DNA of 64,000 bases from Candidatus Geocrenenecus huangii (GCA_023268155.1 JALNKM010000003.1:124001-188000); one strand, 5' to 3'. Shown: positions 16,319-62,496, counted from the first letter of the stretch. The notes: generated by a model not told the origin, from the sequence alone. Program-made: numbers and translations.

Positions 16319-16756
16319 ATGGTAGAAGTCGAATCTAAAACTCTATATGAGCTACTCAGGAAACTAATAGACATAAATAAAATAGCGCCTTTCGTTGAGT
16401 ACTGTGAAGAGTGTATGAGGAGGTTTGCAAGAAGTTTCTTTGACAGTGAAGGGTGCGTAAGTAAAAATGGACAAATTTCCTGCTCCAACAGCGATCTACA
16501 GCTTCTTCAGTATGTCAGGAAGATTCTAAATCTTCTTGGGATAAGAACGACTGAACCAAAGATATGTGTGAAGAAGGAGACTGCATTATTCGACAGAAGA
16601 AAAGGGAAGACATATACTGCAAAGAAGGATGTATATCGCATTTATGTTAGAATGTCAGACGTATTAAGGTTCTATCAATTGATTGGATTTACTATATAGA
16701 GAAAGTAGAAAAGACTCGAAGAATATCTTAAGACACATGGACTACTAACAATATAG
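16319..16756 (+). pseudogene. Decayed LAGLIDADG homing endonuclease (C-terminal half)
   Basis: The first 126 codons are open and encode a second-half LAGLIDADG domain: 'YVEYCEECMRRF' style linker, the degenerate motif 'FARSFFDSEGCV', then 'SNSDLQLLQYVRKILNLLGI', 'GKTYTAKKDVYRIYVR' and 'FYQLIGFTI'. This is the pattern of archaeal intron-encoded endonucleases, but the N-terminal half with the first motif is missing. The frame stops at 16697-16699, then continues as RK, stop (16706-16708), KRLEEYLKTHGLL, the expected family C-terminus ('GFTI.RKQ.RLE.YL'). The two TAGs therefore look like point mutations in a relic. It lies just before tRNA-Cys. Confidence 0.75.
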
Positions 16757-16808
16757 CCCCCACAACCCCACTCTATTTTTTAACCCACTCATAATATAAT
16801 ATACTGGA

Positions 16809-16880
16809 GCCCGGGGAGGGATTTGAACCCCCGTGTAGCGGGTCTGCAGCCCGCCGCCTAAACCACTCGGCCACCCGGGC
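16809..16880 (-). tRNA. tRNA-Cys (GCA)
   Basis: The 72-nt sequence folds into a complete cloverleaf: acceptor stem GCCCGGG/CCCGGGC, a D-arm GCCGAGTGGTTTAGGC, anticodon arm GCGGG-CTGCAGA-CCCGC with anticodon GCA, and a T-arm GGGGG-TTCAAAT-CCCTC with one G-T pair. There is no intron and CCA is not encoded. A box A lies 27 nt upstream. Confidence 0.97.
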
Positions 16881-39486: not shown

Positions 39487-40202
39487 GATAGTGTCCAAAT
39501 AAGGTAATGTATTTAAATGGGGTCTAGCTTGTTATCTTCATGGATATTGTAGCCCTAATCTCTAGTTGTTTTAAGCGTAATAAGAAAGTAGGGAGGTTAA
39601 GGTTTTAGCTGTATTAGAGTATATGTTTCATGGTAGTTGTAGGAAGGTCTCGAAGGTTCTAAGCATTGCTATGGAGCCTATAAGTAAGTCGGATGTACAT
39701 TATCTTTCAAAGATCATATCTTCTAAATTGAAGATAGCGTTAGAACCAAGGTATAGGAGATGCATAGCTATTGATGAAACAAAGCTTAAAGTTAAGAAGA
39801 CCGTAGTATACGTATGGTCTGCTGTAGACGTTGATTCAGGTGAATTACTAGCTCTAGAAGCTTCATATTGTAGAAGCTGTCTAAACGCTCTAAAATTCAT
39901 TAGGAAAGTCCTAAGACTATGCTTGAACAAGCCGAAGATAATTGTGGATAAGGGTCCATGGTATATATGGGCTCTAGAAAGACTTGGAATAGAATATGAT
40001 TATCAAAGATTTGGGATGAGGAATAGAGTTGAAAGATTCTTCAGATACCTTAAGGAGAGAACAGCAGTATTCCATAACAAGCTAAGTGCAAGAAACCATA
40101 TACAGGGAATAACCAATCTGAATCTATTCCTCAACCTATTCACACTATACTATCAGACCATAAGATAGAGAGATGGTTAAGAATACTTATTTGGACACTA
40201 TC
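39487..40202 (+). mobile_element. IS6-like insertion sequence, 716 bp
   Basis: The element has perfect 17-bp terminal inverted repeats, GATAGTGTCCAAATAAG at 39487-39503 and its reverse complement at 40186-40202. It is flanked by an exact 8-bp target duplication (CTAAATTA). It encodes one DDE transposase. It is inserted in the gap between the tRNA endonuclease subunit gene and uL29, only 13 nt past the uL29 stop codon, so it breaks neither gene. The undamaged ends and duplication show that the insertion is recent. Confidence 0.93.
39540..40168 (+). pseudogene. Frameshifted DDE transposase of the IS6-like element
   Basis: The frame opens at the ATG at 39540 (MDIVALISSCFKRNKKVG) and stops at 39606-39608 after the run GGTTTT. 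One extra T in this run (39603-39606) would join it to the next frame, which runs to 40168 and holds 'VLEYMFHGSCRKVSKVLSI', the helix-turn-helix part, and the catalytic D-D-E: Asp in 'CIAIDETKLK', Asp in 'IIVDKGPWY' and Glu in 'RNRVERFFRYLKERT'. The joined product would be about 210 residues. The second frame could still be translated from the ATG at 39623 but would lack its N-terminus. Confidence 0.85.
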
Positions 40203-48619: not shown

Positions 48620-49096
48620 TTGATAGAAGTATGCTTTACCTTGAATGGAAAGATGGTGAAAGTCCAGACAGAGCCGAATGCTACATTGCTTGATGTTCTT
48701 AGAGAAGAACTAAGAATATCGAGTGTTAAGAGAGGATGCGAGGTTGGAGAATGCGGTGCATGCACCGTACTTATCGACGGGAAGCCTGTTAACAGCTGCT
48801 TGATACTTGCACCAAAAGTCGAGGGGAGAAGTATACTCACGGTTGAAGGGCTAACGAGAAACGATGAACTCCACCCTCTCCAAGAATCATTCATAGAAGA
48901 ATTCGCATTACAATGTGGATACTGCACGCCTGGAGTACTATTAACGGCGAAGGCATTGTTAGACCTGAAACCTTCCCCTACGATAGAAGAGATAAAAGAA
49001 GCCCTATCTGGAAACATCTGTAGATGCGGAGCATACCAAGAAATAATAAATGCAATACTGAAGACGTCTAGGAAACTCCAGGGAAAATCAGATTAG
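48620..49096 (+). CDS. Molybdenum hydroxylase [2Fe-2S] small subunit (first copy)
   Basis: The 158-residue protein carries two [2Fe-2S] clusters that pass electrons from the molybdenum site. The plant-type cluster ligands are in 'CEVGECGACTVLIDGKPVNSC' (in parts), and the second cluster in 'QCGYCTPGVL' and 'NICRCGAYQ'. This is the standard small subunit of xanthine dehydrogenase, aldehyde oxidase and CO dehydrogenase families. The start is a TTG. A second small subunit lies at 53173, about 4.5 kb downstream, so this one may serve another large subunit or be an alternative partner. The MobA-like gene follows after 5 nt. Confidence 0.93.
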   Translation: MIEVCFTLNGKMVKVQTEPNATLLDVLREELRISSVKRGCEVGECGACTVLIDGKPVNSCLILAPKVEGRSILTVEGLTRNDELHPLQESFIEEFALQCGYCTPGVLLTAKALLDLKPSPTIEEIKEALSGNICRCGAYQEIINAILKTSRKLQGKSD

Positions 49097-49101
49097 AAGC
49101 T

Positions 49102-49737
49102 ATGACAGAATATGAGTATGTGAAGAAGATGAGTAAGAAGAATAAGATTGCATTAATAATACTAGCAGCAGGAAAATCCACGAGATTTCCAGGAAATAAG
49201 CTTTTAGCAAAAATAAACAATGAATCCATGATTGAGAAAGTAGTTAAGACAGGGTTGAACTCCAAAGCCGACAACATCCTGATCGTAGTTGGACACGAAG
49301 CTGAAAAAATATCGAAATCGCTTGAAAATATAAGAGATGCAAGAATACAAGTAATCTATAACCCAAGATATGAAGAAGGTCAGAGCAGTTCTGTAAAGAC
49401 TGGTGTTGAGTACGTCGTAGGTAAGGCAGACGCAGTAATGATCCTTCCAGCCGACGTACCATTCATTACTCCGGAAGACATAGATAGACTTATAGAAGTA
49501 TATGAGATAACCAATTCAACAATTGTTGTTGCATCATATAGAGGGAGACATGGACACCCAATACTCTTCTCAAGCAAGCTCTTCAACGAGTTAATGATGA
49601 TAACGGAAGAAAAACATGGTCTTAAAGAGGTCATAGAAAAACATAGAGAAGAGATAGTCGAGGCGGAATCAAGTCCATTCACATTAATAGATATAGATAC
49701 ACAAGAAGACCTTGAGAAAATCTTGAAGATGTACTAG
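49102..49737 (+). CDS. MobA/MocA-like molybdenum cofactor nucleotidyltransferase
   Basis: The 211-residue protein has the MobA-like nucleotidyltransferase fold: 'LIILAAGKSTRFPGNKLLAKI' (in parts), 'ILIVVGHEAEKI', 'QGSSSVKTG'-like 'EGQSSSVKTGVEYV' and 'MILPADVPFITPEDI'. MocA-type enzymes add CMP to molybdopterin for xanthine-dehydrogenase-type enzymes, which fits the location between the small and large hydroxylase subunit genes. Whether it uses CTP or GTP cannot be told from sequence by eye. Confidence 0.85.
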   Translation: MTEYEYVKKMSKKNKIALIILAAGKSTRFPGNKLLAKINNESMIEKVVKTGLNSKADNILIVVGHEAEKISKSLENIRDARIQVIYNPRYEEGQSSSVKTGVEYVVGKADAVMILPADVPFITPEDIDRLIEVYEITNSTIVVASYRGRHGHPILFSSKLFNELMMITEEKHGLKEVIEKHREEIVEAESSPFTLIDIDTQEDLEKILKMY

Positions 49738-49887
49738 AGAAACGAAGACCTCTAAAAAGTTCCCCATATTTACATCTTTACCTAATACCTAATACCCCAT
49801 TACTAGAGATCTCGAGTAAAACAATGGTGGATGAAGTAGTTAGCTAAGACTAATAAGGTTCTTAATTTACTCAGATAGTTGAGCTTC

Positions 49888-52254
49888 ATGAGTTTCTACG
49901 CTATCGGTAAGAGGACTGCTAGAAAAGACTCAGTAGCAAAAGTCACTGGCTGGGAGAAGTATGCCTCAGACATATATCTTCCAAACATGCTTCATGCAAG
50001 AGTCCTAAAGAGCCCTTTCCCCCACGCTATAGTAAAAAAGATCGATACGAGTAGAGCGGAGGAGATGGGGGCCATAGTAGTGACCTTCAAGGATGTACCT
50101 GACAAATTATTCTGTCCAAGACTTGTAAGCACACCCGATGCAACATACAAGGATTGGAAAGTATTAACAGATAAACCGAAATTCGTTGGAGAACCTATAG
50201 CTGCCGTCGCAGCCGAGACAGAAGAACTAGCACAAATAGCTTTAGAGTCCATCAATGTTGAATATGAATTACTTGAGCCTGTATTCGATGCCCTAGAATC
50301 GATGAAAGAAGGAAAACCAAGGATTCATGACAAGATCATGTTGAATGACAAGATCATAGATATAGAGAACAATGTTGCCTGTAGATTAGAGCTTCAGGAA
50401 GGAGACCTAGAAGAAGCATTCAAGAGATCAGATATAATTATCGAGAGGGAGTTCAGAACGAGTAGAGGATATCACAACCAGCTTGAACCCAAGGTCGCTG
50501 TAGTTAACCCTGAGCCGGACGGAGGCTTAACGATATGGTGTACGACCCAGACCATCCATAACACGAGACTACTGATTAGCGAGATCTTCAACATACCTGT
50601 AAGCAAGATCAATGTCAAGAAACTCGCTCTAGGAGGAGGATTCGGCTCAAGCATACAGACAAACATTGTTGTCCCTATAGCTGTGGCGCTAGCGCTTAAG
50701 GCCCGTAGACCCGTTAGACTAGCATATACAAAGGAAGAAGACATGCATGAGCATAGCAGCTACCAGATGATCTTCAGATTAAAGATAGGGGTAACGAGAG
50801 ATGGAAAACTCACAGGAGGATTCATGGAGAACATAATGGATATAGGTGCACACCAGATCCAGGCCTACCCATTACTTGGAACATGCGCTGGATGGTGGGT
50901 ATCCTTATACAAGCTTCAAGCAATAAAATATGTAGGTGTAGCGATCTACACGAACAAGATACCTTCATGCGCATACAGGGGATACGGCAACCCCCAGGTA
51001 ACATGGGCCGTAGAAACGATTATGGATGAGCTGGCGGAAATGCTTGGAATGGATCCCATCGAGTTTAGGCTCAAAAACTATGTAGGCGAAAGAGACCTAT
51101 TCTGGGGTCAGGGACCAACAGTAAAATCAATCATCAAGAGCTGCGGAGTAGAGGAAATACTGAAGAAGGGATCCGAATTGATAGGTTGGAAGAATAGACC
51201 TAAGCCTGGAGAACAGAAAGGTAGATTCAGAAGGGGGATAGGGATGGCGAGAGGATACCATACGTCGAGCGCAGGAGCGCCTATACCAAGTCAAGTGATC
51301 GATTATTCTGGAGCAATCCTAAAAGTAAACGAAGATGGGACAGTAGACTACATTACTGGTCTGGTCGATCAGGGTGGAGGGACATTAGAAGCTCATGCAA
51401 AAATAATAGCTGAGGAGCTCGGTTTACCATTAAAGAATGTAAACATTGTTGCCGCGGACTCGCAGACAACGATATACGATGTATGTACACATGCCTCTAG
51501 AGGAGTATATGCTGGAGGGGGAGCAGCATTAAATGTTGCAAGACAAGTTAAAGAAAAAATATTCAAGTTGGCTTCAACGATCTTAAACGCTTACCCGCAT
51601 ACGTTGAGGATACGACCAGATGAAGAGAGGGGTCAAGCAGTAATATACGTTGAGGGGCTACCTGGGAAAGAGATAACGCTCGGAGAGCTTGCAACCCTTG
51701 CTAGAATAAAGAATCTGGGAACGATCGCTGCAGTAGACAGTTTTAGACCTCCAGCCTGCCCACCACACTTTACAGGATACTTTGTTGAAGTATTAGTTGA
51801 TACAGAGACAGGCATCGTGAAACCTTTAAAGGTAGTGATAGGCGCGGATGTCGGGACAGTAATAAATCCAGACCTCGCGGAAGGACAGCTCCACGGCGGC
51901 TTCATCATGGGTTGGAGTAGAGCCATTCTCGAAGATTTAAAATACAATGAGGAGATTGGAGATATAGAATGTAGGGGATTCATAATCGATTATAAGATGC
52001 CTACTGCTGCAGACATACCAGAAGAGATCAAGACATTCTTTGTAGAAACCTATGAGCCTACAGGACCCTTCGGAGCAAAAGGTTTAGGTGAGGGGGCGCA
52101 GAACCCCGCCATAGCAGCAATATCTAACGCAATCTATAATGCGACAGGAGTAAGATTTTACGAGTTGCCGATAACCCCTGAGAAACTACTAGAGAAATTA
52201 AAAGAAAAAGAGGGTAGAAAACTTGCTGTGGAGGATGCTGTAAAGCTAACATGA
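49888..52254 (+). CDS. Molybdenum hydroxylase large subunit (xanthine dehydrogenase/aldehyde oxidase family)
   Basis: This roughly 788-residue subunit holds the molybdopterin site. Visible are 'GGGFGSSIQTN', 'CAYRGYGNPQ' and the glutamate-bearing 'GAKGLGEGAQNPAIAAISNA'. The AYRGYG loop is that of the xanthine dehydrogenase and aldehyde oxidase branch, not the AYRCSFR loop of form I CO dehydrogenase. The substrate remains unknown. A box A-like TTAATTTA at about 49863 fits a leaderless start at the ATG at 49888; a TTG lies at 49879. The FAD subunit gene follows after 16 nt. Confidence 0.93.
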   Translation: MSFYAIGKRTARKDSVAKVTGWEKYASDIYLPNMLHARVLKSPFPHAIVKKIDTSRAEEMGAIVVTFKDVPDKLFCPRLVSTPDATYKDWKVLTDKPKFVGEPIAAVAAETEELAQIALESINVEYELLEPVFDALESMKEGKPRIHDKIMLNDKIIDIENNVACRLELQEGDLEEAFKRSDIIIEREFRTSRGYHNQLEPKVAVVNPEPDGGLTIWCTTQTIHNTRLLISEIFNIPVSKINVKKLALGGGFGSSIQTNIVVPIAVALALKARRPVRLAYTKEEDMHEHSSYQMIFRLKIGVTRDGKLTGGFMENIMDIGAHQIQAYPLLGTCAGWWVSLYKLQAIKYVGVAIYTNKIPSCAYRGYGNPQVTWAVETIMDELAEMLGMDPIEFRLKNYVGERDLFWGQGPTVKSIIKSCGVEEILKKGSELIGWKNRPKPGEQKGRFRRGIGMARGYHTSSAGAPIPSQVIDYSGAILKVNEDGTVDYITGLVDQGGGTLEAHAKIIAEELGLPLKNVNIVAADSQTTIYDVCTHASRGVYAGGGAALNVARQVKEKIFKLASTILNAYPHTLRIRPDEERGQAVIYVEGLPGKEITLGELATLARIKNLGTIAAVDSFRPPACPPHFTGYFVEVLVDTETGIVKPLKVVIGADVGTVINPDLAEGQLHGGFIMGWSRAILEDLKYNEEIGDIECRGFIIDYKMPTAADIPEEIKTFFVETYEPTGPFGAKGLGEGAQNPAIAAISNAIYNATGVRFYELPITPEKLLEKLKEKEGRKLAVEDAVKLT

Positions 52255-52270
52255 AAGCAGAGGTGGTTTA

Positions 52271-53176
52271 ATGAGGGCAGATTATGTAAACCTCGTCAAT
52301 ACACATACAGTTCCAGTAAGATTCATGTATCATTCGCCTGAAACTCTTGAAGAAGCATTGAGACTAATGAGAGAATATGGAGGCGAGGCCAGAGTCATGG
52401 CGGGTGGGACGGACCTGATAGTAGATATGAAGCTGCGCAGGAAAGAACCCAAACACATAGTAAGCTTAAACAAGATTAGGGGGATAGAGTATATAGTCGA
52501 AGAAGATGGGGGAGTAAGAATCGGCGCAAACACAAAGTTGAGAAGCATAGAGAAGAATAGTATCGTACGTGAGAGATTTGAAGCATTGTATGAGGCGGTT
52601 AGGTCTATAGCCTCAGTACAAGTAAGGAATATGGGCACTCTTGTTGGGAACATATGTAATGCTAGCCCAGCCGCCGACTCAGCTCCTCCCCTTCTAGTCT
52701 ACGACGCAGTAGTGAAGGCTCGAAGTATAGATGGCGAGAGGAAGATAAAGATAAGAGATTTCTTTAAAGGGCCGGGAAAAACATGCTTGAAGGATGATGA
52801 GATCGTCACGGAAGTATTCATACCATATCCTCCCGGAGATTCGGCGAGCACATTCTTTAAGATCTCTAGAGTCAGCATGGACTTAGCAAAAGTTAACATA
52901 GCGATACTTGTCAAACTCAGCAGCAACGTGGTCGAAGACTTCAGAATTGCATTAGGGGCCGTTGCACCTACACCCTTAAGAATACCCAAAGCTGAAGAAT
53001 ATCTAAGACATAAACCTCTAAATGAAGAAAACCTCAACATTGTTGAAAAAATAGTAAGTGAAGAAATAAAGCCGATAACAGATGTAAGATCTACTGAATG
53101 GTATCGGAGAGAAGTATCCAAAATATTGGTAAGAGATGCATTAAATTCGACCATTAAGAAGCTGGTGAGAACATGA
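52271..53176 (+). CDS. Molybdenum hydroxylase FAD-binding medium subunit
   Basis: The 301-residue protein is the FAD subunit (CoxM/XdhB type). FAD-binding stretches are 'ARVMAGGTDLIVDMKLR' and 'TLVGNICNASPAADSAPPLL' (in parts), with the C-terminal CO-dehydrogenase-flavoprotein domain ('AVAPTPLRIPKAEEYL'). It is 16 nt after the large subunit and overlaps the second small subunit by 4 nt, so large, medium and small subunits form one transcription unit. Confidence 0.95.
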   Translation: MRADYVNLVNTHTVPVRFMYHSPETLEEALRLMREYGGEARVMAGGTDLIVDMKLRRKEPKHIVSLNKIRGIEYIVEEDGGVRIGANTKLRSIEKNSIVRERFEALYEAVRSIASVQVRNMGTLVGNICNASPAADSAPPLLVYDAVVKARSIDGERKIKIRDFFKGPGKTCLKDDEIVTEVFIPYPPGDSASTFFKISRVSMDLAKVNIAILVKLSSNVVEDFRIALGAVAPTPLRIPKAEEYLRHKPLNEENLNIVEKIVSEEIKPITDVRSTEWYRREVSKILVRDALNSTIKKLVRT

Positions 53177-53655
53177 AGATTGAATTAATAGTTAATGGAG
53201 TTAGAAGAGTAATTGATGTCGAGCCTAACGAACTGTTGATCAATGTTATCCGGGAGAAGCTAGGCTTGACTGGGACCAAGTATGGATGCGGTATAGGAGA
53301 ATGCGGAGCATGCACCGTCATTGTTGACAGTAAGCCTGTACTATCATGTCTAACGCTAGCAGTCGAAGTCGCGGGGAGAGAAATTACGACAATAGAAGGA
53401 GTAGCCAAGAATGGTAGACTAGACCCAGTTCAAGAAGCATTCGTAGAAGAAGGCGCAGTCCAGTGTGGATACTGTACGCCTGGATTCATAATAATGGCAA
53501 AAGCATTACTTGAAGAGAACAAGAATCCAAGCAGACAAGAAATCATCGAATATATTAAGGGAAACCTATGCAGATGCACAGGATACATAAACATCGTAAA
53601 AGCAATACAGAAAGCTTCTGAGAAAATCACGCTGAAAGAAAGAAAAACCACGTAA
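53173..53655 (+). CDS. Molybdenum hydroxylase [2Fe-2S] small subunit (second copy)
   Basis: The 160-residue protein has the same two-cluster layout as the copy at 48620: 'CGIGECGACTVIVDSKPVLSC' (in parts), 'QCGYCTPGFI' and 'NLCRCTGYI'. Its ATG overlaps the end of the medium subunit gene. Because it is coupled to the large and medium subunits, it is the probable partner in the heterotrimer. Confidence 0.95.
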   Translation: MKIELIVNGVRRVIDVEPNELLINVIREKLGLTGTKYGCGIGECGACTVIVDSKPVLSCLTLAVEVAGREITTIEGVAKNGRLDPVQEAFVEEGAVQCGYCTPGFIIMAKALLEENKNPSRQEIIEYIKGNLCRCTGYINIVKAIQKASEKITLKERKTT

Positions 53656-53735
53656 ACATAATATTTTCTCTCAGTAATGCTCATGCAATCTATCTAGCGA
53701 AAAGATTTTAAGAGGGGATCCGGATTAATTATGTC

Positions 53736-54140
53736 ATGCCAGGGGAACGTCCTACTGCTGCTTTTGTGTTATCTCTAATAGGAGGTATTCTTATACTACT
53801 TGGAAGCATAGTCACCGCTATATTTGCAGGCATATTCGGTGGAGCTATGATGATAGTACCATTCTTAGGAGGTCTGGGAGCACTAGTAATAGCTATGGGC
53901 ATTCTTGGGATAATATTTGGAATAATAATATTGATCGGAGCCATAATGGTCAATTCAAGCAATCCTTCTAGAGTAAGAACAGGGTCAATAATCGTATTGG
54001 TCTTCTCTATTCTAAGCCTACTTAGTGGCGGAGGATTCATAGTAGGATTCATACTAGCATTAATCGGAAGCATACTTGGATTAGTCTGGAAGCCATATGA
54101 AGAAAAAGGTCGTCTACCTCCTCCACCGCCTCCCCCCTAA
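53736..54140 (+). CDS. Four-helix membrane protein with polyproline tail
   Basis: The 134-residue protein has about four transmembrane helices with Gly/Ala/Ile-rich faces ('FVLSLIGGILILLGSIV', 'GALVIAMGILGIIFGII' and others). It ends with 'KPYEEKGRLPPPPPPP', a run of seven prolines in the cytoplasm that could bind a proline-recognising partner. It resembles DUF4064-type small membrane proteins of thermophilic archaea. No enzymatic role is suggested. It follows the hydroxylase operon by about 80 nt. A T-rich stretch just after it may end transcription. Confidence 0.6.
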   Translation: MPGERPTAAFVLSLIGGILILLGSIVTAIFAGIFGGAMMIVPFLGGLGALVIAMGILGIIFGIIILIGAIMVNSSNPSRVRTGSIIVLVFSILSLLSGGGFIVGFILALIGSILGLVWKPYEEKGRLPPPPPPP

Positions 54141-54183
54141 TACCTATCCAACTTTTTTCATTTTAAAATACTAAATAATTTTA

Positions 54184-54321
54184 TCAAGTCTTATGTAGAT
54201 ACTCATATAACGTTCTCACATAGGAGGATATAGAATCCACTCTTTTACTTAATTCTTCGACCTTAGCTTCAAGTTTAGCTATTCTCTCTCTTAGTGATAT
54301 AATCTCTGATTCTACACTCAT
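54184..54321 (-). CDS. 45-residue coiled-coil microprotein
   Basis: The frame encodes MSVESEIISLRERIAKLEAK and then a further heptad-rich part ending in 'YEYLHKT'. Almost the whole chain is one amphipathic helix with leucine/isoleucine at a and d positions, suggesting a homodimer or an adaptor. An AAGGT lies 8 nt before the ATG, and an ATATAT box A about 25 nt upstream. It lies between the polyproline membrane protein and xdhC, in its own short gap. The function is unknown. Confidence 0.6.
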   Translation of the reverse strand: MSVESEIISLRERIAKLEAKVEELSKRVDSISSYVRTLYEYLHKT

Positions 54322-54391
54322 GGAGATTTACCTTGTTAAGCCATGATATATTTCTTTCCATTTTAGAGTTTTCTATTATATACCTTACACT

Positions 54392-54409
54392 ATAGTGGCA
54401 AACCACTAT
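54392..54409 (-). terminator. Hairpin at the end of xdhC
   Basis: ATAGTGG-CAAA-CCACTAT forms a perfect 7-bp stem with a 4-nt loop and includes the xdhC stop codon. It may terminate the xdhC message or separate it from the promoter of the 45-residue gene. Confidence 0.35.
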
Positions 54410-55236
54410 TCCTGATGTATCAGAATTGATAGGTGCTTCATAGTCCCTCCTTTCAAGACTTTTACAATCTCAGCCATTATCGCCACCGCAATCTCCTCGG
54501 GCGTATCTGCGCCTATATCTATCCCCACCGGCATGTACAATCTCTCCTTAAGATCTCCTACTCTGTAACCTTCTTCTTTGAGCCTCTTCAAAAACTCTGC
54601 ACATTTTCTCTTACTGCCAAGCAAACCTATGTATTTAGCATTAGTCCTTAGAGAAGCCCTCAACGCTTTGTAATCTTCCTCTACTCCACCATAAACTATC
54701 AGGACTACATCCTTACTAGTAATATGTATCTTTTCCACCCAGTCTTCTAAATCTTTAGAAATGATTAATTCTTCTGCATCCGGAAATCTTTCTTTACTTG
54801 CGAACTCGGGGTTGACGTCGACGATTGCGATCTTATATCCGAGGAATACGGCAATCCTTGAGACCGCTTGTGCTAGATGCCCTGCCCCTATTAATACTAT
54901 TTTAGGCATCGGTTTGAGAACATCCATGAATACTTCTACTTCTCCACCACATATTAAACCCGTCTCAACACCTTCGCCTACGCCTTCTCTTCTAAATACG
55001 TATTTCTTCAATGTGGGTTTACCTTCTCTAAGAGCTCCGAGGGCATCTCTCCAAACCATCATCTCGAAAGACCCCCCGCCAAGCGTTCCGATAAATGAGC
55101 CATCTTCTCTAACTAAGATCCTAGCTCCAACGTCTCTTGGAGCAGAACCCGTCTTCTTCACTATGGTTGCTAGGACTACAGACCTCCCATTCTTATGCTC
55201 TTCAATGAGAGCCTTATAGATGTCTAGATAACTCAT
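54406..55236 (-). CDS. xdhC: XdhC/CoxI-family molybdenum cofactor insertion factor
   Basis: The 276-residue protein belongs to the XdhC/CoxI family, which binds molybdopterin cytosine dinucleotide and helps insert (sulfurated) cofactor into hydroxylases. The N-terminal domain has 'VLATIVKKTGSAPRDVGARILV' and 'GTLGGGSFEMMV', and a Rossmann-fold C-terminal domain begins with 'KIVLIGAGHLAQAVSRIAVFLGYK' and contains 'YIGLLGSKRKCAEFLKRLKEEG' (in parts). It lies convergent with the hydroxylase operon, which it probably serves. Confidence 0.93.
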   Translation of the reverse strand: MSYLDIYKALIEEHKNGRSVVLATIVKKTGSAPRDVGARILVREDGSFIGTLGGGSFEMMVWRDALGALREGKPTLKKYVFRREGVGEGVETGLICGGEVEVFMDVLKPMPKIVLIGAGHLAQAVSRIAVFLGYKIAIVDVNPEFASKERFPDAEELIISKDLEDWVEKIHITSKDVVLIVYGGVEEDYKALRASLRTNAKYIGLLGSKRKCAEFLKRLKEEGYRVGDLKERLYMPVGIDIGADTPEEIAVAIMAEIVKVLKGGTMKHLSILIHQE

Positions 55237-58537: not shown

Positions 58538-58623
58538 CTTCTACACCTTGTAGATCTCCTCTTAACAGCTGCCTTCCAGTGATTTTTTCATAAAAGTATA
58601 TATTGGCAGAGAATGCTTCTTTA

Positions 58624-59610
58624 TTGAAATTGTCTGAAGAAATAGCCGAGTTTAAATGTAGCATATGCGGTTCCATTCTGAGAATCAGCCCTGAAAATAT
58701 TGTATCTATCTGTGAGTATTGCGGTGGATTGAACATAGTTAGCGGAATAATAGATTGTGAAGACATATTCATCTCCACATCCGTCAATGTTGACAAGGTC
58801 CTTGAAGAATTCCTTAACAGGGTTAGGAAAGATGTTGATTTAAAAAAGATTTCAGACAAACTTAGAATTGTCTCCACCCAGGGATGGTATGTTCCATTCT
58901 GGATCTCTAGAGTCTTAATCCGCGGTGAAGTAGTCTACATCAAGAGGCAGTATAGAGGTAAGAAAGTTGAAATAATTAGGAATAGAGATAGCTTCTCAGA
59001 AGAAATCGATATAGACATCATTGCTAGAAGGCAAGTAAAGAACCTCGCTTTGAGAGAATTAATTAAGACATACTTTAGACAGAAGCCTCAGCTGGCAGAG
59101 CTCAAGAATCTCGCCGAAGATTGGTGGAGGTCGAATAAGTTAACAATCCTTAACATAGAATTTGACAGGAAGGAATCTGAGATCTCGTTAAGAGAAGAGG
59201 CAGTAGACTCTGTCAGGAGAATATGGGAAGATAAAGTCGATGAGATAGAATTCTTTAAGGCGGAAGTGAAGAAGATGGAGAGACCTAAGCTAATCTTTCT
59301 ACCGCTTTGGGAGGTTGTCTACGAATATAATGGAAGCTTCTACACAGCTTACCATCAAGGATGGAGCGGTCACCCACTAATCTTCTACGAGCCCATCACT
59401 ATGAGTAGAAGGCTGCTCTATGCTATAGGCATGTTCACATCCATCATTTTGGGATCTATCATAGGCTCAGCACTGTCTCTACTAACATTAGATAGCTTGA
59501 GCGATGCCTGGTGGATAATACTTTTCCTGCTCTTCATACTCGCTTTAATCGGATACAGGTCTGCGAAAGGATTCATCTCAGATATAAGAGTTGAGAAGTC
59601 ATGGAGATAG
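58624..59610 (+). CDS. Zinc-ribbon protein with C-terminal membrane hairpin (YdjG-like), first copy
   Basis: The protein (about 328 residues from the TTG at 58624) opens with a TFIIB-like zinc ribbon, 'FKCSICGSIL' and 'ICEYCGGLN'. A long soluble middle follows, and then two C-terminal transmembrane helices ('YAIGMFTSIILGSIIGSALSLL', in parts, and 'WWIILFLLFILALIGY'). A box A AAAGTATATATT at 58592-58604 overlaps the first TTG at 58603, so the one at 58624 is preferred. It starts a five-gene set and overlaps the next gene by 10 nt. The resemblance in layout to Bacillus YdjG is a comparison, not a proven homology. Confidence 0.65.
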   Translation: MKLSEEIAEFKCSICGSILRISPENIVSICEYCGGLNIVSGIIDCEDIFISTSVNVDKVLEEFLNRVRKDVDLKKISDKLRIVSTQGWYVPFWISRVLIRGEVVYIKRQYRGKKVEIIRNRDSFSEEIDIDIIARRQVKNLALRELIKTYFRQKPQLAELKNLAEDWWRSNKLTILNIEFDRKESEISLREEAVDSVRRIWEDKVDEIEFFKAEVKKMERPKLIFLPLWEVVYEYNGSFYTAYHQGWSGHPLIFYEPITMSRRLLYAIGMFTSIILGSIIGSALSLLTLDSLSDAWWIILFLLFILALIGYRSAKGFISDIRVEKSWR

Positions 59611-60533
59611 TGTGCCCTGGTTGTAGTGCTAGATTCCAAGTCCCTGAGAGCGTGAGGACGTTTACATGCCCATACTGTGGATTAGTTTTTGGAGAAAGAG
59701 TGGTAGAAGATCACTACTATTTCCCAGTAATAAAAGAGGAGCCTTACACTATGCTACTGAATTTCCTTAGAAGACAATTCGGGATACCCTCTGATATTGT
59801 CTCCAACTCAACTCTGAAGATCAAGTACCTCTATTATGTTCCAGTATACTTCTACTACCTATATGGGAGGATGATTGGTAGATGCAGTGGAAGAGGATGG
59901 ACTGAATCTGAGGAGGCAGCATATAAGGGTTTGGTGGCCTCCAGAAATTTTAGAGATATTCTTGAAGATTATCCATTTCCTGTTAGAGGGAAGAAGTTCT
60001 TCAGAAAGGAGATTATGAATATTGGATTCTATCAACAACCTGAGTTTCCCGAGGATGAGGCCAGAAACTATGTAAAAGCATATCTCCATAAAATACTTGA
60101 AGATGAACTCTTTAGAGAATGCAAGAATCTTAAGGAAGTCAGTGTAGAAGAATTAAGAGTTGATTTTCGTGGATTGATCCATTACCCAATATATTATCTT
60201 GAGTATCTTTATGATGACCAGACGTATTCAGCTTACTTAGATGGTGTAGATGGAAAGATCATTTCTGCAGAGTATCCAATCAAGCTTCAGACAAAAACTT
60301 TACAGATGATAATCGGCTCGCTACTATTAACGTGTAGCATCGTGTTCGGATTAGCTCTCTCACTCATTGTAGGGAATCCCCTACCATTTATATTCTCTAT
60401 TGTTCCAGCGATTTCTTCATCTACACCATTGCTTACCAGAAGCTTAACCAAGAAAGTTATATCCTCAGAAGTTAAGATAATTCAAGAAGAGTCTAGACCA
60501 TTCACCAAATATATTAAAAAGTTCTTAACATAG
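59601..60533 (+). CDS. Zinc-ribbon protein with C-terminal membrane hairpin (YdjG-like), second copy
   Basis: The 310-residue product has the same layout as the gene before it: zinc ribbon 'VCPGCSARFQVPESVRTFTCPYCG' (in parts), then a soluble part of about 200 residues ending in 'YLEYLYDDQTYSAYLDG', and two hydrophobic segments near the C-terminus ('IIGSLLLTCSIVFGLALSLIV'). The 'YYLEYLYDDQTYSAYLDGVDG' region parallels 'WEVVYEYNGSFYTAYHQGWSG' of its neighbour, so the two are likely paralogues that form a heteromer. It overlaps the first copy by 10 nt. Confidence 0.65.
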   Translation: MEIVCPGCSARFQVPESVRTFTCPYCGLVFGERVVEDHYYFPVIKEEPYTMLLNFLRRQFGIPSDIVSNSTLKIKYLYYVPVYFYYLYGRMIGRCSGRGWTESEEAAYKGLVASRNFRDILEDYPFPVRGKKFFRKEIMNIGFYQQPEFPEDEARNYVKAYLHKILEDELFRECKNLKEVSVEELRVDFRGLIHYPIYYLEYLYDDQTYSAYLDGVDGKIISAEYPIKLQTKTLQMIIGSLLLTCSIVFGLALSLIVGNPLPFIFSIVPAISSSTPLLTRSLTKKVISSEVKIIQEESRPFTKYIKKFLT

Positions 60534-60569
60534 GAAAAGCTTATCAGCAATCCATGCCAGGATACGCAT

Positions 60570-60893
60570 ATGGTCGGGTACGGTGCTGGAGCTCTAGCCG
60601 TTTTAGCCTTGTCGATCGGTCTAGTTTTAATCGTTTATGGTGGCGGATTAGTACAGATTGATATACTCAACATTCCTGCATGGATTCTTGGACCCCTAGG
60701 TATCTATACATTGATCTACGGGGTTCTCTCCAAAAAAGATACATTATTTTATTCTATATGGGGAGTAATAATGCTAGGGATCACATCCACCTCAGCTCTC
60801 TACAACTTTGTTAATCCCCTGATCATCCTAGGCATATTAATTATTATTGTGGTTGTATTCGTGTTTATCATGAGAGTGGGATTAAGGAAATGA
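60570..60893 (+). CDS. Small four-helix membrane protein
   Basis: The 107-residue protein is almost entirely membrane-embedded, with about four helices ('ALAVLALSIGLVLIVYGGG', 'AWILGPLGIYTLIYGVL', 'LFYSIWGVIMLGITSTS' and 'LIILGILIIIVVVFVFIM'). No motif reveals a function. It ends with an ATGA overlap onto the next gene, so it is coupled to it. Confidence 0.6.
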   Translation: MVGYGAGALAVLALSIGLVLIVYGGGLVQIDILNIPAWILGPLGIYTLIYGVLSKKDTLFYSIWGVIMLGITSTSALYNFVNPLIILGILIIIVVVFVFIMRVGLRK

Positions 60894-61420
60894 GCGGTAA
60901 AGATTATCAGGAAAAAGTTCGGCGCGAAATGACATTGCTAGAGAAGATTCTTAACTATATCCCTGGATACAGAGGATATAAAGAAAAAGAGATCAGAAGA
61001 GAAAGCGATAGACTGGTGAGGAGCGAGTCTGCGAATAAACTAAAAGAAGCAAAAAATATTGTTCGCATGAAGTTAGCTGAAATGTCTAGTTTAAGAATGA
61101 TAGAAGAGAAAGATATCTGGAGAATAGATATGGTTCTATCTAGATTGGATAGAGTTGCTGCAAAGATAGAAAGAGCTCCTGCAGGATACGCAGGGTTATT
61201 TGATGCAGTTAAAGTTAAAGAAGACAAACTGGATAAGGTCCTAGAACACGACTTCTCAATGATAGAGAAATCTGAGAAGATAAGAGATGCAGCTAGAAGA
61301 TTTGAAATTCTTGAATCTAGAGAAGAGTGGCTAAAATGCTTAGAAGAATTACTGGAGCTTATAGATGAGCTTGAGAGAACATTCGATGAGAGAACGGATA
61401 TCCTGAGAGGGCTTGCCTGA
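60890..61420 (+). CDS. Helical, coiled-coil protein of the zinc-ribbon/SPFH set
   Basis: The 176-residue protein begins with 'LNYIPGYRGYKEKEIRRESDRLVR', a motif also found in bacterial helical proteins that neighbour SPFH-zinc-ribbon genes, then a long series of charged amphipathic helices. It has no membrane helix. Such a protein could bind the membrane surface or bridge the membrane components, somewhat as PspA does, but it has no clear PspA signature. It starts inside the end of the previous gene. Confidence 0.65.
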   Translation: MSGKDYQEKVRREMTLLEKILNYIPGYRGYKEKEIRRESDRLVRSESANKLKEAKNIVRMKLAEMSSLRMIEEKDIWRIDMVLSRLDRVAAKIERAPAGYAGLFDAVKVKEDKLDKVLEHDFSMIEKSEKIRDAARRFEILESREEWLKCLEELLELIDELERTFDERTDILRGLA

Positions 61421-61470
61421 TAGCTGGAAACACTTAAAAGGATAAGAATCTTAAAAGATGTGATGGTTCG

Positions 61471-62496
61471 ATGCCTAAGGTAATTGAGTGGGTTGGAGCA
61501 GGAGAGTACGATGTCGTATGGAGATACCCAGTTGAAGAAATTAGCTGGGGAGATACATTAATAGTACACGAGTACGAGGCCGCAATCTTTTTCAGAGATG
61601 GAAAAGCCTATGATGTGTTTAGAGCTGGAAGACATGTTTTAACAACGGCTAACCTCCCTCTTTTAACCTCTATTCTCTCAAGGGTGGCTGGATTCGATAA
61701 AACCCCCTTCAGAGCAACTATAATTTTTGTTAGCCTTAAGCAATTTCAAGGAAGGTTCGGTGGACAAGGTCAGACGAGGGAACTCGCACCCTTGAAATTT
61801 CATGGTAGTTTCTGGTTTAGGATAGAAGACCCCAACCTATTTATAAATGAGGTGGTTGGAGGTCAAGGAGCCTACAGTACGGATAGAATTCAGGAATTTC
61901 TTAGAGGATATTTTAATGAGAGATTAATAGATAGCTTAAGTCAATACTCCCTCATAGATGTTTATGGAAAATTGGATGAAACAAGCTTCTTAGCCAAGAA
62001 TCTCCTATACGAGGCTTTTAGAAGATTGGGTCTCGAATTGATAGATGTCAAGTTCGAGGGGATCGATACCTCCCCTGATTGGAGAGATAGGATATTCTTC
62101 TTGAAGACCGGCGTAAGCGCTGAAGAAGTATTAAGAATGCAGACTGTTCAGAAGGCTGCTGAAAGCCTTTCCAAGAGTGAAGGCGCAGCTGTTGGAGCCG
62201 GCATAGCTATTATCCCACCCTTATTCCAGACCCCTCCTTCTCAACCACAAGTAATCTGCCCCAAGTGTGGTAGACAGAACCCTCAAGGTTCGAGATTCTG
62301 CAATAATTGTGGTGCTCAACTATTAGAGGCGACAGGAGTAAAATGTTCGAGATGCGGAATGCAGAATATGCCGGGTGCAAAATTCTGTTCAAATTGTGGA
62401 AATCCACTAGAATCTTTAACTAAATGTCCAAGATGCAATGCCGACATACCTTCATCTTCTAAGTTCTGCCCTAATTGTGGAACTAAACTAACATGA
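61471..62496 (+). CDS. SPFH-domain protein with C-terminal zinc ribbons (YdjI-like)
   Basis: The 341-residue protein starts with an SPFH/band-7-like domain of the YdjI ('virion core protein') type: 'EYDVVWRYPVEEISWGDTLIVHEYEAAIFFRDGKA' (in parts), 'FRAGRHVLTTANLPLL', 'HGSFWFRIEDPNLFINEV'. A helical segment and a Pro-rich linker precede three zinc-ribbon units, starting 'ICPKCGRQNPQGSRFCNNCG', 'KCSRCGMQNMPGAKFCSNCG' and 'KCPRCNADIPSSSKFCPNCG'. In Bacillus, YdjI works with PspA, YdjG and YdjH at the membrane. It is the last gene of the set. Confidence 0.85.
   Translation: MPKVIEWVGAGEYDVVWRYPVEEISWGDTLIVHEYEAAIFFRDGKAYDVFRAGRHVLTTANLPLLTSILSRVAGFDKTPFRATIIFVSLKQFQGRFGGQGQTRELAPLKFHGSFWFRIEDPNLFINEVVGGQGAYSTDRIQEFLRGYFNERLIDSLSQYSLIDVYGKLDETSFLAKNLLYEAFRRLGLELIDVKFEGIDTSPDWRDRIFFLKTGVSAEEVLRMQTVQKAAESLSKSEGAAVGAGIAIIPPLFQTPPSQPQVICPKCGRQNPQGSRFCNNCGAQLLEATGVKCSRCGMQNMPGAKFCSNCGNPLESLTKCPRCNADIPSSSKFCPNCGTKLT

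Follow-up and report, generated by a model that had tools for sequence, protein, structure and literature searches.

Does a compact five-gene locus in the hot-spring archaeon Candidatus Geocrenenecus huangii encode a membrane module of the kind that works with PspA in Bacillus subtilis, and is PspA part of it? How TACK archaea guard their membranes without PspA is an open question; in a survey of Psp systems, more than half of archaeal genomes lacked Psp domains and few Psp systems were found in archaea (PMC9239133). In B. subtilis, the soluble SPFH protein YdjI requires YdjG and YdjH for localization to the membrane and recruits PspA there (PMC8581546), and YdjG has been described as containing zinc ribbons, a YpeB-related domain, and a transmembrane (TM) segment (PMC11237479). 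A first-pass annotation had likened the locus to this bacterial set. The locus lies in a window of 64,000 nucleotides, and its features are as follows.

58590..58604, + strand: TATA-like stretch ATAAAAGTATATATT, read from the sequence, ~30 bases 5' of the preferred g1 start.
58630..59610, + strand: g1, predicted zinc ribbon, beta-rich domain, and C-terminal two-helix membrane hairpin (open reading frame, homolog alignment, paralogy with g2).
59601..60533, + strand: g2, predicted zinc ribbon, beta-rich domain, and C-terminal membrane hairpin (open reading frame, homolog alignment, AlphaFold).
60570..60893, + strand: g3, small membrane protein of four-TM type (open reading frame; homologs near g4/g5).
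60890..61420, + strand: g4, predicted all-helical protein with an N-terminal PGYRGYKEKEIRRE motif (open reading frame, alignment of 27 sequences, AlphaFold).
61471..62496, + strand: g5, soluble SPFH protein (Band_7_1) with three C-terminal zinc ribbons at ~62257-62490 (open reading frame, Pfam).

Reading of the open frames confirmed five genes on the + strand between 58630 and 62496, with ends that overlap or lie close together. The end of g1 (59610) overlaps the start of g2 (59601), the end of g3 (60893) overlaps the start of g4 (60890), and 50 bp separate g4 from g5. Gene g1 itself stands as first annotated; its start has been moved from 58624 to TTG 58630 (MSEEIAEFKC) because homologs align there (MSEEVIRFKC..., MSDEVASLVC...), the other candidates being TTG 58624 and TTG 58603. 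With this preferred start, the TATA-like stretch at 58590..58604 would suit a leaderless archaeal transcript.

Across the five proteins, Pfam recognises only g5 and short zinc ribbons. The g5 protein is a member of the Band_7_1 SPFH family (PF13421), to which YdjI also belongs, with a match above Pfam's curated cut-off (96 bits against 24, E 3e-27, profile positions 1-195 of 211); the family was also detected in the B. subtilis control. Zn_Ribbon_1 is matched in three stretches within residues 263-340, and hydropathy reveals no TM segment. The protein thus has the architecture of the YdjI type, an SPFH domain followed by C-terminal zinc ribbons, and its initial description as a YdjI-like SPFH protein with three zinc ribbons is upheld. 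The same genome contains, on contig 17, a separate pair of genes for a classical stomatin and an NfeD-type protease (L095:6204-8287). This STOPP pair shares the SPFH superfamily with g5, but stomatin is TM-anchored and paired with the NfeD protease, whereas g5 is soluble, of Band_7_1 type, and equipped with zinc ribbons. Searches of plasmids found only distant SPFH proteins, and the sole plasmid neighbourhood opened, from Butyrivibrio, had neither a zinc-ribbon membrane gene nor a PspA gene among its annotations.

Candidate membrane anchors are encoded upstream of g5. In both g1 and g2, a CxxC...CxxC zinc ribbon at the N-terminus is followed by hydrophobic stretches at the C-terminus, and their profile-profile alignment (probability 99.9%, E 5e-34) identifies them, at the level of sequence, as true paralogs. 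The AlphaFold model of g2 (mean pLDDT 85.5), for which Foldseek gave no confident PDB match, combines a predicted zinc ribbon and beta-rich domain with a hairpin of two helices at residues 229-257/261-282. This architecture resembles the one published for YdjG. The g3 product is a small multi-TM protein with no Pfam family match; its homologs adjoin g4/g5 in many genomes, in varying order. The two successive zinc-ribbon and hairpin genes, and the four-helix membrane protein, of the first-pass annotation were therefore correctly recognised.

The remaining protein, g4, is the least familiar. It carries PGYRGYKEKEIRRE, as had been noticed, and is all-helical in its AlphaFold model (pLDDT 82), with two short N-terminal helices followed by four long ones. 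Foldseek found no PDB match for this model at E 0.001. A mildly amphipathic segment precedes the PGYRGYK motif; its amphipathicity lies on average at the 76th percentile of shuffles and is weak in the Sulfolobales-like sequences, so that an amphipathic N-terminus is suggestive only. The g4 protein aligns with the NCBIfam family NF047596 (LIMLP_15305, from Leptospira) over residues 8-172 (E 2.7e-14), a weak full-length match whose 53 bits lie far under the family's cut-off of 210, and NF047596 is at most a distant relative. A plasmid search with g4 gave nothing, and a viral origin was set aside, with only scattered weak PHROG matches in single members.

One explanation of the locus is that it is a true phage-shock system, with g4 as a divergent member of PspA/ESCRT-III and the whole set homologous to pspA-ydjGHI. 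The gene sets are similar, each compact operon combining a soluble PF13421 SPFH protein with zinc ribbons, a membrane zinc-ribbon protein, and a helical partner. Furthermore, the distributions of g4 and PspA are complementary: PF04012 (PspA/IM30) passes its cut-off in 8 of 398 Thermoproteota, and g4 is present in one of these eight (Fisher p 0.03, uncorrected for kinship). However, g4 has no Pfam match to PF04012, and its profile-profile comparison with archaeal and E. coli PspA by hhalign gave a probability of <1%, whereas a positive control in the same test, archaeal against E. coli PspA, gave 96% (E 3.7e-9). Nor did PspA or ESCRT-III appear among the 50 best Foldseek matches of g4, so neither comparison places it in the ESCRT-III/PspA superfamily. 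There is no evidence in these comparisons that g4 is a detectable PspA, in agreement with its initial description as a helical protein lacking a clear PspA signature.

The genomic evidence points the same way. Above the curated cut-off, PF04012 was found neither in the host genome or its close relatives nor in nine other diverse genomes that carry the module; matches below the cut-off in relatives, mostly partial and located within long reading frames, were disregarded. None of the eight archaeal PspA loci has an SPFH or zinc-ribbon gene nearby, and in the single genome with both PspA and g4, the g4-SPFH set occupies a separate locus. Pfam likewise found no TPM_phosphatase domain, the YdjH-type TPM, among the five proteins. 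The pspA-ydjGHI operon therefore differs in having PspA and a TPM protein, both missing from the five-gene locus, which instead has a paralogous zinc-ribbon pair, a four-TM protein, and a helical partner that profile comparison finds unrelated to PspA. Profile and structure searches have thus confirmed the SPFH family and returned no PspA or TPM protein; homology of the whole set to the phage-shock system is very improbable, and the PspA partnership suggested at first is unsupported.

If the five genes did not recur together elsewhere, the idea of a module would fall; this point was set beforehand. The neighbourhoods are in fact kept across archaea, as seen in the joint presence, joint absence, and adjacency of g4 and SPFH genes. 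Among 61 relatives, g4 is present in 31 and g2 in 22, and all 22 genomes with g2 also carry g4. In the relatives' loci, g1 and g2 form a tandem and g3 stands either before or after g4-g5; many Caldarchaeales-type genomes have this tandem beside g4-g5. Absence is also shared: in the sister species G001 and G004, of the same genus, searches for g4, g2, and the SPFH protein were all empty. The closest loci among the matches listed are those of Candidatus Geocrenenecus dongiae and Aigarchaeota SKYB24, and the host is therefore probably a Wolframiiraptoraceae/Caldarchaeales-type archaeon.

On a wider scale, a g4 profile scan of 84,980 species genomes gave 256 confirmed matches. The best 80 of these fall in Bathyarchaeota, Nezhaarchaeota, Caldarchaeales-type archaea, Pyrobaculum, Geothermarchaeota, Hadarchaeum, and one Anaerolineae bacterium. 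Of 99 scorable archaeal loci, 93 have an SPFH gene as the next gene downstream of g4 (74/77 named and 19/22 further loci), with a median gap of 3 bp. Across 398 evenly sampled Thermoproteota genomes, 205 carry g4, 200 a Band_7_1 SPFH gene, 198 both, and 191 neither, although the Fisher value for this co-occurrence overstates independence because the genomes are related. From this near-perfect co-occurrence and adjacency, the core of the module is g4 plus g5, with g4 an obligate-looking partner of the SPFH gene. Zinc-ribbon proteins related to g1/g2 and small multi-TM proteins often accompany this core but vary between loci. The early view of a YdjG/YdjI-like archaeal membrane module largely holds once PspA is removed, and the set is not local, its core being shared by roughly half of the Thermoproteota sampled and by some Chloroflexota. 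A search of the open literature, with subscription papers and preprints outside its scope, found no published account of a g4-SPFH module. What appears to be new is an SPFH system of the YdjI type in which PspA gives way to a helical partner that is nearly obligate and had not been recognised.

We consider it most likely, with a probability of roughly 0.6, that the locus encodes a membrane-scaffold complex that works independently of PspA to preserve membrane integrity or to maintain membrane proteins. The g5 protein would probably oligomerise on the inner face of the membrane, forming a scaffold. Because g5 shares the domain family of YdjI and has no TM segment, and g1-g3 offer membrane anchors, the zinc-ribbon/hairpin pair g1/g2, together with multi-TM g3, may tether g5 at the membrane, as YdjG/YdjH do for YdjI. 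The g4 protein would then be a dedicated partner of g5 at the cytosolic membrane face, binding the SPFH scaffold and/or the membrane surface. A role in membrane integrity or in maintenance of membrane proteins is suggested by the biology of SPFH proteins.

Variation in the SPFH partner bears on what such a scaffold might do. Its C-terminal tail differs by lineage, being a zinc ribbon, SHOCT, or GYF; for example, SHOCT or GYF domains replace the zinc ribbons of the SPFH partner in L243:6618-7619 and L167:3689-4792. Interchangeable tails fit expectation for an adaptor scaffold. They also suggest binding of clients or partners, as would be the case if the module served quality control of membrane proteins, with g5 assembling, like HflK/C or stomatin, into a gate for a membrane protease or chaperone, g4 acting as adaptor, and zinc ribbons recruiting clients. 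SPFH proteins often control proteases, as with HflK/C-FtsH and the partners of stomatin. However, in the loci inspected, where most neighbours are unannotated, a recurring protease or AAA+ gene was not noticed, and the genome's stomatin and NfeD protease pair is encoded apart from the module, making this explanation unlikely. Phage defence was also considered and rejected, as PADLOC gave no match for any of the five proteins.

The partners around the core vary as well. Bathyarchaeia have only one zinc-ribbon protein, which is shorter and devoid of TM segments, followed by g4, g5, and a four-TM protein. A FAD gene beside the module there had raised suspicion of a link to isoprenoid lipids; Pfam identified the neighbours as an FAD-dependent dehydrogenase and a lysyl-tRNA synthetase, and the link was dropped. 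Calditenuaceae have an extra zinc-ribbon protein inserted between g4 and g5. Zinc-ribbon anchors are not universal, since Sulfolobales-like families (f21 and f24, a presumptive name) keep g4, an SPFH protein without a zinc ribbon, and a TM protein. Some loci encode zinc-ribbon proteins of this g1/g2 type that are longer and soluble and have an additional domain at the N-terminus; their genes lie between or beside g4 and the SPFH gene (L126:7529-8776, L101:2725-3723, L227:5135-6430).

Several archaeal lineages encode, near the SPFH gene, a protein of Arrestin_N type that ends in a zinc ribbon (L102:8575-9165, L114:10088-10750, L163:1-489, and others). Such a gene lies near g5 in 12 named loci, as could be expected of a vesicle or sorting module akin to the archaeal ESCRT adaptin (Meth_adaptin type) loci, in which SPFH-zinc-ribbon and arrestin-like zinc-ribbon proteins would select cargo. 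The published text consulted describes SPFH-zinc-ribbon genes in Meth_adaptin ESCRT loci of Methanobacteriales and does not report g4 (PMC10936438); zinc-ribbon and immunoglobulin-like (arrestin/adaptin-type) partners in some loci are a further shared feature. Unlike those loci, the g1-g5 module had no Vps4 or ESCRT-III (Snf7) gene that was noticed, the host genome's ESCRT-III-type genes are on other contigs, and an arrestin gene is found in only a minority of loci, frequently on the other strand. A sorting function is accordingly quite unlikely, and a membrane-scaffold complex remains the preferred reading.

A broader proposal is more doubtful, though possible: g4 may found an unrecognised family of SPFH partners that takes over, alongside a soluble SPFH scaffold, the position that PspA holds in bacteria. 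Such a system would guard membrane integrity independently of PspA, would be ancestral or widespread among Thermoproteota, and would also be found in Chloroflexota. The presence of the module in about half of the sampled Thermoproteota bears on how TACK archaea guard membranes without PspA. The module occurs in cultivable Pyrobaculum and, presumably, in Sulfolobales (PF13421 was found in Sulfolobus acidocaldarius), and g4 is almost one-to-one with the SPFH gene; the question is therefore directly testable.

The Chloroflexota extend the range of contexts for g4. In an arbitrarily rooted tree of 109 g4 proteins, with weak support for its deep branches, the Chloroflexota sequences form one group (99/99). 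Some of these bacteria have a TM/zinc-ribbon gene, g4, and an SPFH gene. Others have g4 beside a molybdopterin-dehydrogenase operon with no SPFH gene, and g4 can therefore have another role. Seven such loci without SPFH (L247, L249, L252, L254, L257, L258, and L259) form one branch of the g4 tree, and in them g4 is directly upstream of genes for a fused FAD/2Fe-2S molybdopterin-dehydrogenase subunit, a small TM protein, and the large subunit.

The window has a comparable operon at 48620-55236, molybdopterin dehydrogenase-like (2Fe-2S, MobA-like, large subunit, FAD, 2Fe-2S) and accompanied by an XdhC-like gene. A link between the five genes and this xanthine/CO-dehydrogenase operon (48.6-53.7 kb) was raised because Chloroflexota g4 adjoins such operons; their proximity was judged a coincidence, since no such neighbour was noticed in close relatives. 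Elsewhere in the window, an IS240-type DDE transposase gene lies at 39623-40168, and a LAGLIDADG_3 endonuclease gene (16319-16699) adjoins tRNA-Cys (16805-16880, - strand).
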